From Polyangium spumosum (GTDB taxonomy: Bacteria > Myxococcota_A > Polyangia > Polyangiales > Polyangiaceae): 64,000 bases of DNA. The stretch is from contig NZ_WJIE01000006.1 in the NCBI RefSeq assembly GCF_009649845.1, forward strand, positions 620,001 to 684,000. Direction: 5' to 3'. Position 1 is the first letter of the stretch, and each line of letters starts with the position of its first letter. The notes beneath the pieces were generated by a model. It worked only from the letters and a program-made list of their open reading frames with translations. It searched no databases and was not told where the DNA came from. The position numbers and the translations under genes are program-made. This document shows positions 59,920-64,000 of the stretch, one piece after another.

Positions 59920-60240
59920 CGGCTTCGTCCGACGTCGACCGGACCAACGAGTCCGTCGCTGCTGTCTCGAGCGGGCGCCTTGCATTCGTACAATCGCCGC
60001 ACAAGAATGTCGCGACCTCGCCCTGGCCCCTGGGCAACCAGGCCCCCGCGAAGCGTCACGGCGAGGACGAAACCAGGTAATCGAATTCACCTTGACGCCT
60101 GCGCGGGGGGATGGATACGCTGACGTTGGAAGACTGGCTGGATCCGGGGTGGATGAGCTTCGGCCGGACGTCTCCGAGGGGCCCTGCTTCGATTGCTTCC
60201 CGACGCAACTGATGTCGCAGGCAGACCGGGCTGAAACCGC
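59920..60240. other. 321-nt intergenic region before the FHA-GGEEF gene
   Basis: No gene is supported. A weak promoter-like pair TTGACG (60092-60097) and GATACG (60114-60119, 16-nt spacing) faces the diguanylate cyclase gene. No clear terminator for the amidotransferase gene and no other structure stand out. Confidence 0.6.
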
Positions 60241-61146
<906 letters not shown>

Positions 61147-61228: not shown

Positions 61229-62578
61229 ATGCCCCTCAGCGAGTTTCCCGCTCCCGCAGAGGAACCGACGGGTGAAGAGCTCCCCGAGATCCGCGTAGCG
61301 CCTCCCGGCCCTGCGTCTCGCAGCCTGCTCGGCAGGCTCGAGCGCGTCGAGTGTCCGGCGTTCGGCTCACGGCGCAAGACCCGCGAGGAGTCGAGCGGCG
61401 CGGAGATGACGCCGATCGTCCTCGCCTCGGGCAAGGGCGCGAACCTGTTCGACGTCGACGGCAACCGCTACGTCGACCTCGTGGCCGGCTTCGGTTCGCT
61501 CCTGCTCGGTCACGGCGCGACGAGCGTGACGCGCGCCATCGAGGCGCAGACCGATCGGCTCATCCAGGCGCTCGGCGACGTGTACGCGGCCGACATCAAG
61601 GTCGCGCTGCTCGAGCGGCTCGCGTCGCTGCACCCGGGCTCCGCGCCGCGCGTGCTGCTCTGCCAGAGCGGCAGCGACGCGGTGACGGCCGCGTTGAAGA
61701 CGGTCACGCTCGCGACGGGCAAACCCGGCGTGGTCGCGTTCGAAGGCGCGTATCACGGCCTCGGTTACGGCCCGCTCGCCGTGCTCGGGCTACGCGACAG
61801 TTACCGCGAGCCCTTCAGCTCGCAGCTCAACCCGCACGTCAAGTTCGCGCCGTATCCCGCGGCGGAGGACGATCTCGATCGGTCCCTCGGCGCCGCGGAG
61901 AAGGCGCTCGCGGCCGGCAACGTGGGCGCGGTGCTGGTCGAGCCGATCCTCGGCCGCGGCGGCATCATCGTGCCGCCCGAGAGGTTCTTGCGTGACCTCT
62001 GCGAGCTCGCGCATCGGCACGGCGCGCTGGTCGTCGCGGACGAGATCTGGACCGGGCTCGGCCGTTCGGGCTCGATGGTGCGATCGACCGCGGTGGGCGC
62101 TTCGGTCGACGTGCTCGTGTTCGGCAAGGGCCTCGGCGGAGGGCTGCCGATCGCGGCGTGTATCGCGCCGGACGAGGTCATGCAGGCGTGGGCGCGTGAG
62201 GGCGAGGTCGTGCACACGTCCACGCACGCGGGGGCGCCGCTCGCTTGCGCGACGGCGATCGCCACGCTCGACTCGCTCAGGTTCCGGCAGCTCGTCACGA
62301 AGGCGCGCGAGATCGGCGCGCGGACGAAGGAGTACCTCGCCGCGGTGCTCGCGGGCGCGCCGGGCGTCGTCGAGGTGCGCGGCGAGGGCTTGATGCTCGG
62401 CGTCGCTTTCGAGAGCGGCGCGCTCGCCTTGCATACGATGCGCCGCATGCTCGAGGCCGGCTACGTGGTCATCACGGGCGGACAGAAGGGTGAGGTGATC
62501 ACCTGGACGCCGCCGCTCACGATCGCCGAGGAGCAACTCACGGCGGCCGCGAACGCGATGAAGGCGGCGATCGGCTGA
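61229..62578 (+). CDS. Class III PLP-dependent aminotransferase
   Basis: 449 aa. IVLASGKGANLFDVDGNRYVDLVAGFGSLLLGH, LLCQSGSDAVTAALKTV (phosphate-binding turn), VVADEIWTGLGRSG (the PLP Asp-Glu pair), and Lys300 in VFGKGLGGGLPIAA are all class III marks. The first 50 residues are an extra Pro/Glu-rich segment. It transfers an amino group to or from a carbonyl substrate (4-aminobutyrate, diamines, or an aldehyde). It is 59 nt upstream of the LuxE-like gene on the same strand, which fits a fatty-aldehyde amination role, an inference. Confidence 0.88.
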   Translation: MPLSEFPAPAEEPTGEELPEIRVAPPGPASRSLLGRLERVECPAFGSRRKTREESSGAEMTPIVLASGKGANLFDVDGNRYVDLVAGFGSLLLGHGATSVTRAIEAQTDRLIQALGDVYAADIKVALLERLASLHPGSAPRVLLCQSGSDAVTAALKTVTLATGKPGVVAFEGAYHGLGYGPLAVLGLRDSYREPFSSQLNPHVKFAPYPAAEDDLDRSLGAAEKALAAGNVGAVLVEPILGRGGIIVPPERFLRDLCELAHRHGALVVADEIWTGLGRSGSMVRSTAVGASVDVLVFGKGLGGGLPIAACIAPDEVMQAWAREGEVVHTSTHAGAPLACATAIATLDSLRFRQLVTKAREIGARTKEYLAAVLAGAPGVVEVRGEGLMLGVAFESGALALHTMRRMLEAGYVVITGGQKGEVITWTPPLTIAEEQLTAAANAMKAAIG

Positions 62579-62637
62579 CCTGCACGACAGGGCCGCTCGC
62601 TTGGCGACCCTGCCTCGCTCCTGCTAGGAATCGCCGC

Positions 62638-63753
62638 GTGACGGTGCGGCCTACGAGCGAAGCGCTGCATGAGCGCGTGCGTGCGTTCGTCCTGGGGACC
62701 CTCTCCGGCGCGGAGACAGAGCCCTTCGACGACCTCGCGCTCGCGCTCGCGCGTTTCCAGGCCGCGCACGTGCCCGCCCTCGGTCGCCTCGTCCGCGCGC
62801 GCGGGCTCGACCTCGCGAGCGCGCGTGACGCCTCCGTGATCCCCGCGCTGCCGTGTGACGTCTTCCGGCTCGCGCGTATCGCCGTGCACCCACCCGAGGA
62901 GGACACGCTCGTGTTCCGGACGAGCGGCACGTCGCAGGGCAGGGAGGCGCGCGGGGAGCATCCGTTCCGCACCACGGCGACGTACGAGCTCGTCGCGCTT
63001 CGCTGGGGCGAGCGGATGCTCTGGCCCGATCAGGAAGACCTCGGCGTGCTCGTGCTCGCGCCGTCCGTCGAGGAGGTCTCCGACTCCTCGCTCGGCTTCA
63101 TGCTCGATCGGTTCGCCCGCGAGCTCGGAGGCCCCGCGAGCTTTCACGTGCGCGGCGGCGAGCTCGACATCGAGGGCCTCTCACGCGCCGCGGCCGAGGC
63201 GCGTGCGCGGGGGCGGAGCATGCTCGTGCTCGGCGCGTCGTTCGCCTTCGTGCACCTGCTCGACGGCGCGGGGGCGCGGGATTTGACGCTCCCGCCGGGC
63301 AGCCGCGTGATGCAGACCGGCGGCTTCAAGGGTCGATCGCGCGAGGTCGAGCCGGCCGAGCTCCGGCGCGCGATCGCCGCCACGTTTGGCCTCCCCGAGG
63401 CGCACGTCGTGGGCGAGTACGGCATGACCGAGCTCTCCAGCCAGCTCTACGAGGGCACGCTCGCGGCTGCGCTCGGCGTGCGCGCGCCGGCGCGGCACGG
63501 CGTGTACGTGTCGCCGCCCTGGATGCGCGTGACGGCCGTCGACGCCGCGACCCTCGCGCCGCTCCCGCCGGGCGAGACGGGCATCCTGCGGTTCGTCGAC
63601 CTCGCCAACGTCGACGCGTCCGTGGCGATCCAGACCTCGGACCTCGGGCGCGTGACGGCCGAGGGCGTCGAGCTCTTCGGCCGCGCCCCGGGGGCCACGC
63701 CGCGCGGGTGCTCGCTCGCGATCGACGACGTCCTCGCGCGTGGATCGTCATGA
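62638..63753 (+). CDS. LuxE-like acyl-protein synthetase
   Basis: 371 aa. Adenylate-forming fold of the LuxE/PaaK type: VFRTSGTSQGREARGEHPF is the nucleotide loop, VVGEYGMTELSSQLYEG the A5-like motif, and TGILRFVDLANVDASVAIQTSDLGRV the C-terminal lid. In light-emitting bacteria LuxE activates fatty acid as acyl-AMP and passes it to LuxC. Here no luciferase genes are present. GTG 62638; its stop overlaps the LuxC-like ATG (ATGA). Confidence 0.85.
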   Translation: MTVRPTSEALHERVRAFVLGTLSGAETEPFDDLALALARFQAAHVPALGRLVRARGLDLASARDASVIPALPCDVFRLARIAVHPPEEDTLVFRTSGTSQGREARGEHPFRTTATYELVALRWGERMLWPDQEDLGVLVLAPSVEEVSDSSLGFMLDRFARELGGPASFHVRGGELDIEGLSRAAAEARARGRSMLVLGASFAFVHLLDGAGARDLTLPPGSRVMQTGGFKGRSREVEPAELRRAIAATFGLPEAHVVGEYGMTELSSQLYEGTLAAALGVRAPARHGVYVSPPWMRVTAVDAATLAPLPPGETGILRFVDLANVDASVAIQTSDLGRVTAEGVELFGRAPGATPRGCSLAIDDVLARGSS

Positions 63754-64000
63754 GCGACGGCGCCGAGGCGAGGGCGCGTGTCCTTCGCGTGATCGCCGCG
63801 GGCAGGCGGGTCGAGGATCCGCGTGATCCTCTCGGCGTCGAGGCGCGCGCGCGTTTGCCCGAGACGACCGGGCTCCACCCGAAGGGCGTCGAGCTCGCGC
63901 TCGGCGCGCACCTCGAGACGTCTCCGACCGACGCCGAGATCGACGCGCTCCTCGCGCGCACGGGCGTCGCGCCTCGTTGCCACGTCGTCCTCTCGGCCAA
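63750..64000 (+). CDS. LuxC-like acyl-CoA/acyl-protein reductase (3' end outside window)
   Basis: 83 codons visible. The N-terminal sequence (LPETTGLHPKGVELALGAHLE, DAEIDALLARTGVAPRCHVVLSA) agrees with the beginning of LuxC-type reductases in myxobacteria, with the VVLSA just before the nucleotide-binding fold. LuxC reduces acyl-enzyme from LuxE to aldehyde with NADPH. ATG 63750 overlaps the LuxE-like stop. The catalytic Cys lies beyond the end, so the call rests on position and the short match. Confidence 0.7.
   Translation, partial: MSDGAEARARVLRVIAAGRRVEDPRDPLGVEARARLPETTGLHPKGVELALGAHLETSPTDAEIDALLARTGVAPRCHVVLSA

Follow-up and report, generated by a model that had tools for sequence, protein, structure and literature searches.

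What is a gene set that combines an aminotransferase with relatives of the luminescence proteins LuxE and LuxC used for? The question is raised by the end of the window, the 64,000-nucleotide stretch of the Polyangium spumosum genome (contig NZ_WJIE01000006.1, positions 620,001–684,000) that was analyzed here. At positions 61229–64000, three genes lie head to tail on the plus strand and encode a class III aminotransferase (AT), a LuxE-like protein and a LuxC-like protein, the end of luxC falling outside the window. We will refer to these genes as the trio. Queuosine is a widespread modification of the tRNA wobble base, and preQ1 (7-aminomethyl-7-deazaguanine) is its free precursor base. Our analysis suggests, with a probability that we estimate at about 0.8, that the trio acts as an alternative preQ1 synthase system within the queuosine pathway, where it would replace QueC and QueF. 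CDG (7-carboxy-7-deazaguanine, the QueE product) and preQ1 are proposed as substrate and product because the phyletic pattern and the gene neighborhoods point to them, and the observations on which this is based are gene order, conservation of key residues, presence or absence of Que genes, and linkage to QueE and QueD.

To our knowledge, QueC and QueF form the only route from CDG to preQ1. According to passages of PMC5372724, FolE, QueD and QueE lead to CDG, from which QueC produces preQ0 and QueF preQ1, TGT inserts preQ1, and QueA and QueG/H finish the modification. In the P. spumosum genome, QueA and TGT score over their cut-offs, QueE (TIGR04349) reaches 270 bits with a cut-off of 300, QueD reaches 79 bits with a cut-off of 89, and no match was obtained for QueC or QueF. 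The pathway of this genome, with QueD, QueE, QueA and TGT and no QueC/QueF, therefore has a single hole, the step from CDG to preQ1. The net chemistry of the trio, from COOH to CH2NH2, matches this step exactly. None of the three trio proteins is matched by the QueF or QueC Pfam model at E ≤ 0.01.

The trio and queuosine genes in the order of the window

The trio genes were identified as open reading frames with Pfam matches. AT (61229–62578) is a class III pyridoxal phosphate (PLP) aminotransferase of 449 residues that matches PF00202 with an E-value of 4e-83 (279.8 bits). The LuxE-like gene (62638–63753) starts with GTG and encodes a LuxE-like/PaaK-fold acyl-adenylating enzyme of 371 residues, which scores over the cut-off of PF04443 (E = 1.7e-8, 34.2 bits, cut-off 24.9). 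The 5′ part of the gene for the LuxC-like acyl reductase (63750–64000) is a frame that stays open to the window end; the LuxC-like protein also scores over its cut-off (PF05893, E = 1.3e-19, 70.8 bits, cut-off 21). In L003, the genome stretch that runs beyond the window (its position 1 corresponds to window position 60001), the complete LuxC-like gene was found, as the initial annotation had anticipated; it encodes 360 residues and would end at window position 64832. The NCBIfam luminescence models are far from reached (32.4 of 550 bits for LuxE and 22.9 of 750 bits for LuxC; NF052244, NF052251), and because the scores are so far under these cut-offs, the two proteins are considered family relatives and not luminescence LuxE and LuxC. 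Among the 25 curated NCBIfam models listed for AT, none has its cut-off passed (best score 266 bits). The ATG of the LuxC-like gene overlaps the stop codon of the LuxE-like gene by four bases (ATGA), and such overlaps suggest that the three genes form one transcription unit.

The gene set described by the initial annotation was confirmed, and it is conserved beyond chance in the order to which P. spumosum belongs (Polyangiales), for which a synteny sample of 61 loci (60 fetched and the locus of the window) was analyzed. AT is located upstream of the LuxE-like gene on the same strand at a distance of at most 100 bp in 52 of these loci and at most 2.7 kb in seven more, the exceptions being L061, which has no AT, and L056, which has only a distant AT fragment. 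The LuxC-like gene is found on the strand of LuxE in 54/61 loci, within 100 bp in 47. The median intergenic gap is −4 bp, i.e. an ATGA overlap. Named relatives with such loci include Polyangium sp. 15x6 (L094, LuxE 87% identical) and Minicystis rosea (L095).

Counts of LuxE-like, QueF, QueC and TGT genes across the class were tallied by hand from genome tables, with the kinship labels (order and class) and genome completeness taken as supplied with these tables. Of the 183 order genomes, 174 have a LuxE-like gene, whereas the rest of the class yielded weak matches in 5 of 134 genomes. The trio is thus a core operon of the order. QueF (PF14489) is found in 0/183 order genomes and in 111/134 other genomes of the class; weak QueF matches occur in 27 order genomes, and the only one above the Pfam cut-off (G197) is FolE. 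QueC was counted at ≥100 bits, as the Pfam cut-off of 22 bits is passed by many weak matches in both groups, and at this threshold it is found in 7/183 order genomes versus 121/134 others. TGT is present in both groups (176/183 and 125/134). At E ≤ 1e-6, QueD and QueA were each detected in 173 order genomes and QueE in at least 144, the QueE search having been performed with one protein query from a genome outside the order.

In two of the seven order genomes with QueC (G225, locus L241; G285, locus L240), QueC adjoins DpdA. DpdA is a DNA-modification enzyme, and DpdA/DpdB is a 7-deazaguanine DNA-modification system. The QueC cluster of G285 also holds DpdB, and both G225 and G285 carry the trio. 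The QueC of G298 scores 101/150 bits on the QueC model.

Linkage to QueE and QueD in other lineages

A scan for LuxE relatives identified 80 named loci, spread over many phyla. In fifteen loci that we place outside the order, a trio-type AT lies within the LuxE locus; six of these are from Myxococcota or Deltaproteobacteria metagenome-assembled genomes (MAGs) for which the order was not given, and their LuxE either groups apart from the clade formed by the order or sits on a long branch. Two gene orders are observed among the fifteen: AT-LuxE-LuxC, and LuxE-LuxC-AT in three Vulcanimicrobiota loci and in L152. In 16 Verrucomicrobia loci, LuxC is directly followed by a gene of the QueD family. 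In 9 of the 19 loci in which AT lies apart from LuxE and LuxC, QueE is directly upstream of the trio-type AT on the same strand, and in all nine its stop codon is at most ∼250 bp from the AT reading frame or inside the AT open frame (in L209, the QueE stop reaches position 1425 and the AT frame begins with the next base, 1426). In Verrucomicrobia, AT is often paired with QueE. QueE also occurs in the arrangement QueE-x-AT-LuxE-LuxC (L142), immediately before LuxE (L133), and ∼3 kb upstream of the trio with one opposite-strand gene between them (L073). In a Pseudovibrio locus (L101:409–8608), the genes for QueD, AT, a HAD hydrolase, an adenylosuccinate synthetase-like protein, a phosphoribosyltransferase, an IMPDH/GMP reductase-like protein, LuxE and LuxC follow in a row, so that QueD adjoins AT and four genes separate AT from LuxE, a distance at which AT was still counted as part of the LuxE locus; we take this locus to resemble a 7-deazapurine nucleoside cluster of the toyocamycin type. 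A viral collection contained four pattern matches, with no LuxE relative among them. Judged by genomic co-occurrence and linkage to Que genes, the trio would belong functionally to the queuosine pathway.

The neighborhoods also bear on a different explanation, in which the trio acts on another 7-deazaguanine or pterin acid (e.g. 6-carboxytetrahydropterin, the QueD product) or makes another amine or nucleoside, and preQ1 is salvaged. QueD adjoins LuxC in many loci, the Pseudovibrio locus combines QueD and genes of the AdSS (adenylosuccinate synthetase), IMPDH and PRTase (phosphoribosyltransferase) families with the trio, and preQ1 salvage is described for bacteria without QueF in passages of PMC5372724. 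However, QueE, the enzyme that makes CDG, is linked to AT and LuxE and kept in the order, and QueD and QueE would be useless to a pure salvager. We consider this explanation unlikely and prefer a role of the trio in the conversion of CDG to preQ1.

The presence of QueF and QueC was also analyzed in 50 further genomes, which correspond to 50 hand-chosen loci of the 80 (excluded were members of the order, loci on short contigs, the majority of the Bacteroidota and a small number of others) and include six Myxococcota/Deltaproteobacteria MAGs for which the order was not given. TGT is present in 49 of them, and 46 are without QueF; true QueF is found in G328, G344, G348 and G356. QueF-like matches of 27–31 bits in G324, G332, G342 and G343 were discarded, as the fetched proteins are FolE. 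QueC scores above 190 bits in 3/50. An AT profile was searched against 32 genomes (that of P. spumosum and 31 of the 50), most of which were chosen because their LuxE has no adjoining AT. The scores are bimodal: in 19 genomes, a trio-type AT (354–506 bits) is encoded elsewhere than in the fetched LuxE locus, and the other class III ATs listed in the same 32 genomes score at most 294 bits. Together with the 15 in which it lies within the LuxE locus, 34 genomes carry a trio-type AT (G326, G328, G356 and G366 were left out of this search), and QueF is found in none of the 34.

In a quick tree with SH-aLRT support only, the four genomes with QueF group with L114, L122 and L157 in a single LuxE subclade (SH-aLRT 88). 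G344 and G348, the two of these four genomes that were searched, have no trio-type AT, and the top-scoring AT of each is in the score range of the paralogues. This suggests that the LuxE relatives of the subclade serve another function. LuxE-LuxC pairs in QueF-keeping genomes are found in L116, L134, L139 and L151, where they are possibly part of another acid reduction pathway. By sequence reading, a xanthine/uracil permease-like gene lies near the pair in L139 and L151, and an alcohol dehydrogenase-like gene in L134 and L139. The subclade with QueF, its paralogue-like ATs and the alcohol dehydrogenase-like gene could indicate that the reduction of CDG by LuxE and LuxC stops at the aldehyde or alcohol and that AT, though part of the operon, has a different substrate. 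But the alcohol dehydrogenase-like gene is also found in L135 and L150, which are without QueF, AT is almost always part of the operon in the order, and its frequent pairing with QueE in Verrucomicrobia is at odds with such a division of labor, which we regard as highly improbable.

In a more careful AT tree, a branch with 100/98 support separates ten class III paralogues and the AT of L114 from the trio-type, remote and QueE-linked ATs. According to the initial annotation, its proposal of a route to fatty amines would be refuted if AT clustered with glutamate-1-semialdehyde or 4-aminobutyrate enzymes and were transcribed apart. What was found instead is that AT lies head to tail with LuxE and groups with the trio ATs, away from the ten paralogues, in a tree built without glutamate-1-semialdehyde and 4-aminobutyrate enzymes. 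L114 was dropped as a trio because its AT falls among the paralogues. Two other loci were left out of the count: L155, where QueD and QueE adjoin LuxE but the AT is weak and its very long branch cannot be placed, and L153, whose AT is no more than a fragment at a contig end. The LuxE-like proteins of the Bacteroidota loci L154, L160 and L162–L173 form a separate clade with no LuxC or AT match nearby. In six Bacteroidota loci, a nearby gene reads as tyrosyl-tRNA synthetase, and the Bacteroidota genomes that were searched (those of L154, L163, L168 and L171) contain TGT and no true QueF.

Catalytic residues, predicted folds and the proposed reactions

For each trio protein, 38 orthologues were aligned (out of 61 LuxE, 54 LuxC and 60 AT genes), and four elements are invariant in all 38. 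The first is K300 of AT (codon 62126–62128, computed from the gene start), which by its position would be the PLP lysine. Two elements of the LuxE-like protein were located from the alignment: the EYGMTE sequence (residues 260–265, codons 63415–63432), an adenylation motif, and C358 (RGCSL, codon 63709–63711), which aligns with the C-terminal KGCSL of LuxE in structure 7xc6, whose cysteine is the acyl site. The fourth is C207 of the LuxC-like protein (GCLSP), which aligns with the DQQACFS sequence of LuxC and is encoded beyond the window. The trio proteins thus look catalytically intact.

When a profile of the 38 LuxE-like orthologues was compared with the PDB at E ≤ 0.01, the sole match was LuxE (7xc6_E, E = 4.6e-28), and the LuxC-like profile matched 7xc6_A (E = 1.3e-16). 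Both proteins were modeled with high confidence scores (predicted local distance difference test, pLDDT, of 91.9 for LuxE-like and 95.7 for LuxC-like). The LuxC-like model is closest to LuxC (7xc6_A, TM 0.72). The nearest folds of the LuxE-like model are PaaK-type ligases, several of them aryl-acid enzymes, and 7xc6_E is absent among the 50 fold matches listed, although the sequence profile detects it.

These results bear on the claim of the initial annotation that LuxE and LuxC reduce fatty acids to aldehydes from which AT makes fatty amines. In luminous bacteria, the substrates of LuxE and LuxC are fatty acids, and PigE, an AT that aminates an alkyl aldehyde, is among the better NCBIfam matches of AT (243 bits, cut-off 850, versus 266 bits for the best). 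However, the LuxE-like model is nearest to PaaK-type ligases, several of which are aryl-acid enzymes, QueD and QueE recur beside trio genes, no recurring lipid gene was noticed (most neighbor clusters were left unannotated), and the trio is distributed in parallel with the disappearance of QueC and QueF from genomes that retain TGT. Because Que genes are linked to trio genes, we rejected the fatty-amine explanation, which appears very unlikely. The type of chemistry put forward in the initial annotation, from an acid via an aldehyde to a primary amine, is retained, and the fatty-acid substrate is not, as nothing was found that points to fatty acids.

In the reaction sequence that we propose from these sequence comparisons, CDG would be adenylated by the LuxE-like enzyme and converted to a thioester on its C-terminal C358. 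The acyl group would then be transferred to C207 of the LuxC-like enzyme, which would reduce it with NAD(P)H to 7-formyl-7-deazaguanine, and AT would aminate this aldehyde to preQ1, the substrate of TGT. All substrates, products and reactions assigned here to the trio are predictions.

Several observations weigh against this proposal. As a vinylogous amide, 7-formyl-7-deazaguanine is a sluggish aldehyde and a poor substrate for transamination. Within the order, the LuxC-like gene is missing near LuxE in 7/61 loci and lies 7.8 kb off in L059, nine genomes have TGT and no LuxE-like match (these are perhaps incomplete), QueE was not detected at E ≤ 1e-6 with the single distant query in 39/183 genomes, and five of the seven QueC matches are not accounted for by DpdA. 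Among the further genomes, G323 has the trio and also a QueC over the cut-off (170 bits), and low-scoring QueC-like proteins are found in G330, G343, G351 and G354. In ten genomes, QueF and a trio-type AT are both absent (G333, G337, G338, G341, G343, G358, G360 and G363–G365); G363–G365 are Bacteroidota, and the other seven are from various phyla. G333 and G343, in which no class III AT was found at E ≤ 1e-20, may be incomplete. When the window and 27 loci were searched for preQ1 riboswitches, no match reached the gathering score. Finally, the order-wide swap of QueC/QueF for the trio may be a single evolutionary event, and the strength of the proposal therefore rests on the repeated linkage across phyla.

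On balance, it is quite likely that a second de novo route to preQ1 exists, which proceeds via an aldehyde and without QueC, QueF and preQ0 in several phyla. Its users would be Myxococcota including the order of the window, Verrucomicrobiota, Gemmatimonadota, Vulcanimicrobiota, Omnitrophota and some Pseudomonadota, and perhaps also Chloroflexota. If so, many genomes now read as those of preQ1 salvagers or as having pathway holes would belong to organisms that make queuosine themselves. The presence of TGT without QueF in a whole order would be explained, predictions of makers and importers would shift, non-luminescence relatives of LuxE and LuxC would gain a defined nucleobase role, and a natural acid-to-amine cascade would become available.

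Neighboring genes and comparison with known systems

In P. spumosum, the trio is preceded by an FHA-GGDEF gene (60241–61146) and followed, just past the window (L003:4890–6311), by a gene for a protein with GAF and PEP-utiliser-N domains, which resembles the N-terminal part of PtsP and in which Pfam found no catalytic PEP domain. Most loci from the family of P. spumosum have the FHA-GGDEF gene, whereas few or no loci from other families of the order do, and the GAF/PEP-utiliser-N gene follows the trio in several family members; neither adjoins the trio throughout all 61 order loci. A sigma-70 promoter scan, which is uninformative in a high-GC genome, gave no promoter. The second PF05893 match of the genome (L002, 26.8 bits) was set aside, as by sequence reading it is an ordinary aldehyde dehydrogenase-like protein.

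In the open-access library that was searched, we found no paper that links LuxE or LuxC to queuosine synthesis, and among the papers listed, titles and abstract openings revealed no preQ1 route other than QueC/QueF that uses an aminotransferase, an aldehyde or an acyl-CoA reductase. In the passages available from one study, the profiling of queuosine makers and salvagers relies on QueC/QueF genes (PMC11130926). With this canonical route, in which CDG is converted via ADG (7-amido-7-deazaguanine) and preQ0 to preQ1, the trio shares the proposed substrate and product as well as the upstream (QueD, QueE) and downstream (TGT, QueA) genes. Unlike the canonical route, the proposed one would involve no nitrile and would proceed through adenylation, thioester, aldehyde and transamination on three unrelated protein families, at a cost of one ATP, one NAD(P)H and an amino donor.

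The luminous LuxC-LuxE fatty acid reductase (7xc6) has in common with the trio both protein families, the aligned cysteines and the adjacency of the genes. In contrast to it, the trio proteins show low similarity (34 bits for LuxE and 71 bits for LuxC) and do not reach the NCBIfam cut-offs, and the proposed acid is a heteroaromatic base instead of a fatty acid.

Among the fold neighbors of the LuxE-like model are structures 3hgv, 3l2k and 3hgu (Z 20.9–21.8), which we take to be EhpF, the griseoluteic acid enzyme that belongs to phenazine metabolism. The gene beside ehpF, ehpG, is of the aldehyde dehydrogenase family according to passages of PMC11278526. EhpF/EhpG differ from the trio in their phenazine substrate. 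The EhpF/EhpG system reduces an aromatic heterocyclic carboxylate, and we know of no aminotransferase step in it.

The trio was also considered as a split PigE, and this was rejected because the LuxC profile failed to match the PigE chain 4ppm at E ≤ 1. In systems of the PigE/TamH type (prodigiosin and tambjamine), a thioester is converted via an aldehyde to an amine with a class III AT in one fused protein. This thioester-aldehyde-amine chemistry is similar to that proposed for the trio, whose functions, unlike those of the fused enzymes, are encoded by three separate genes.

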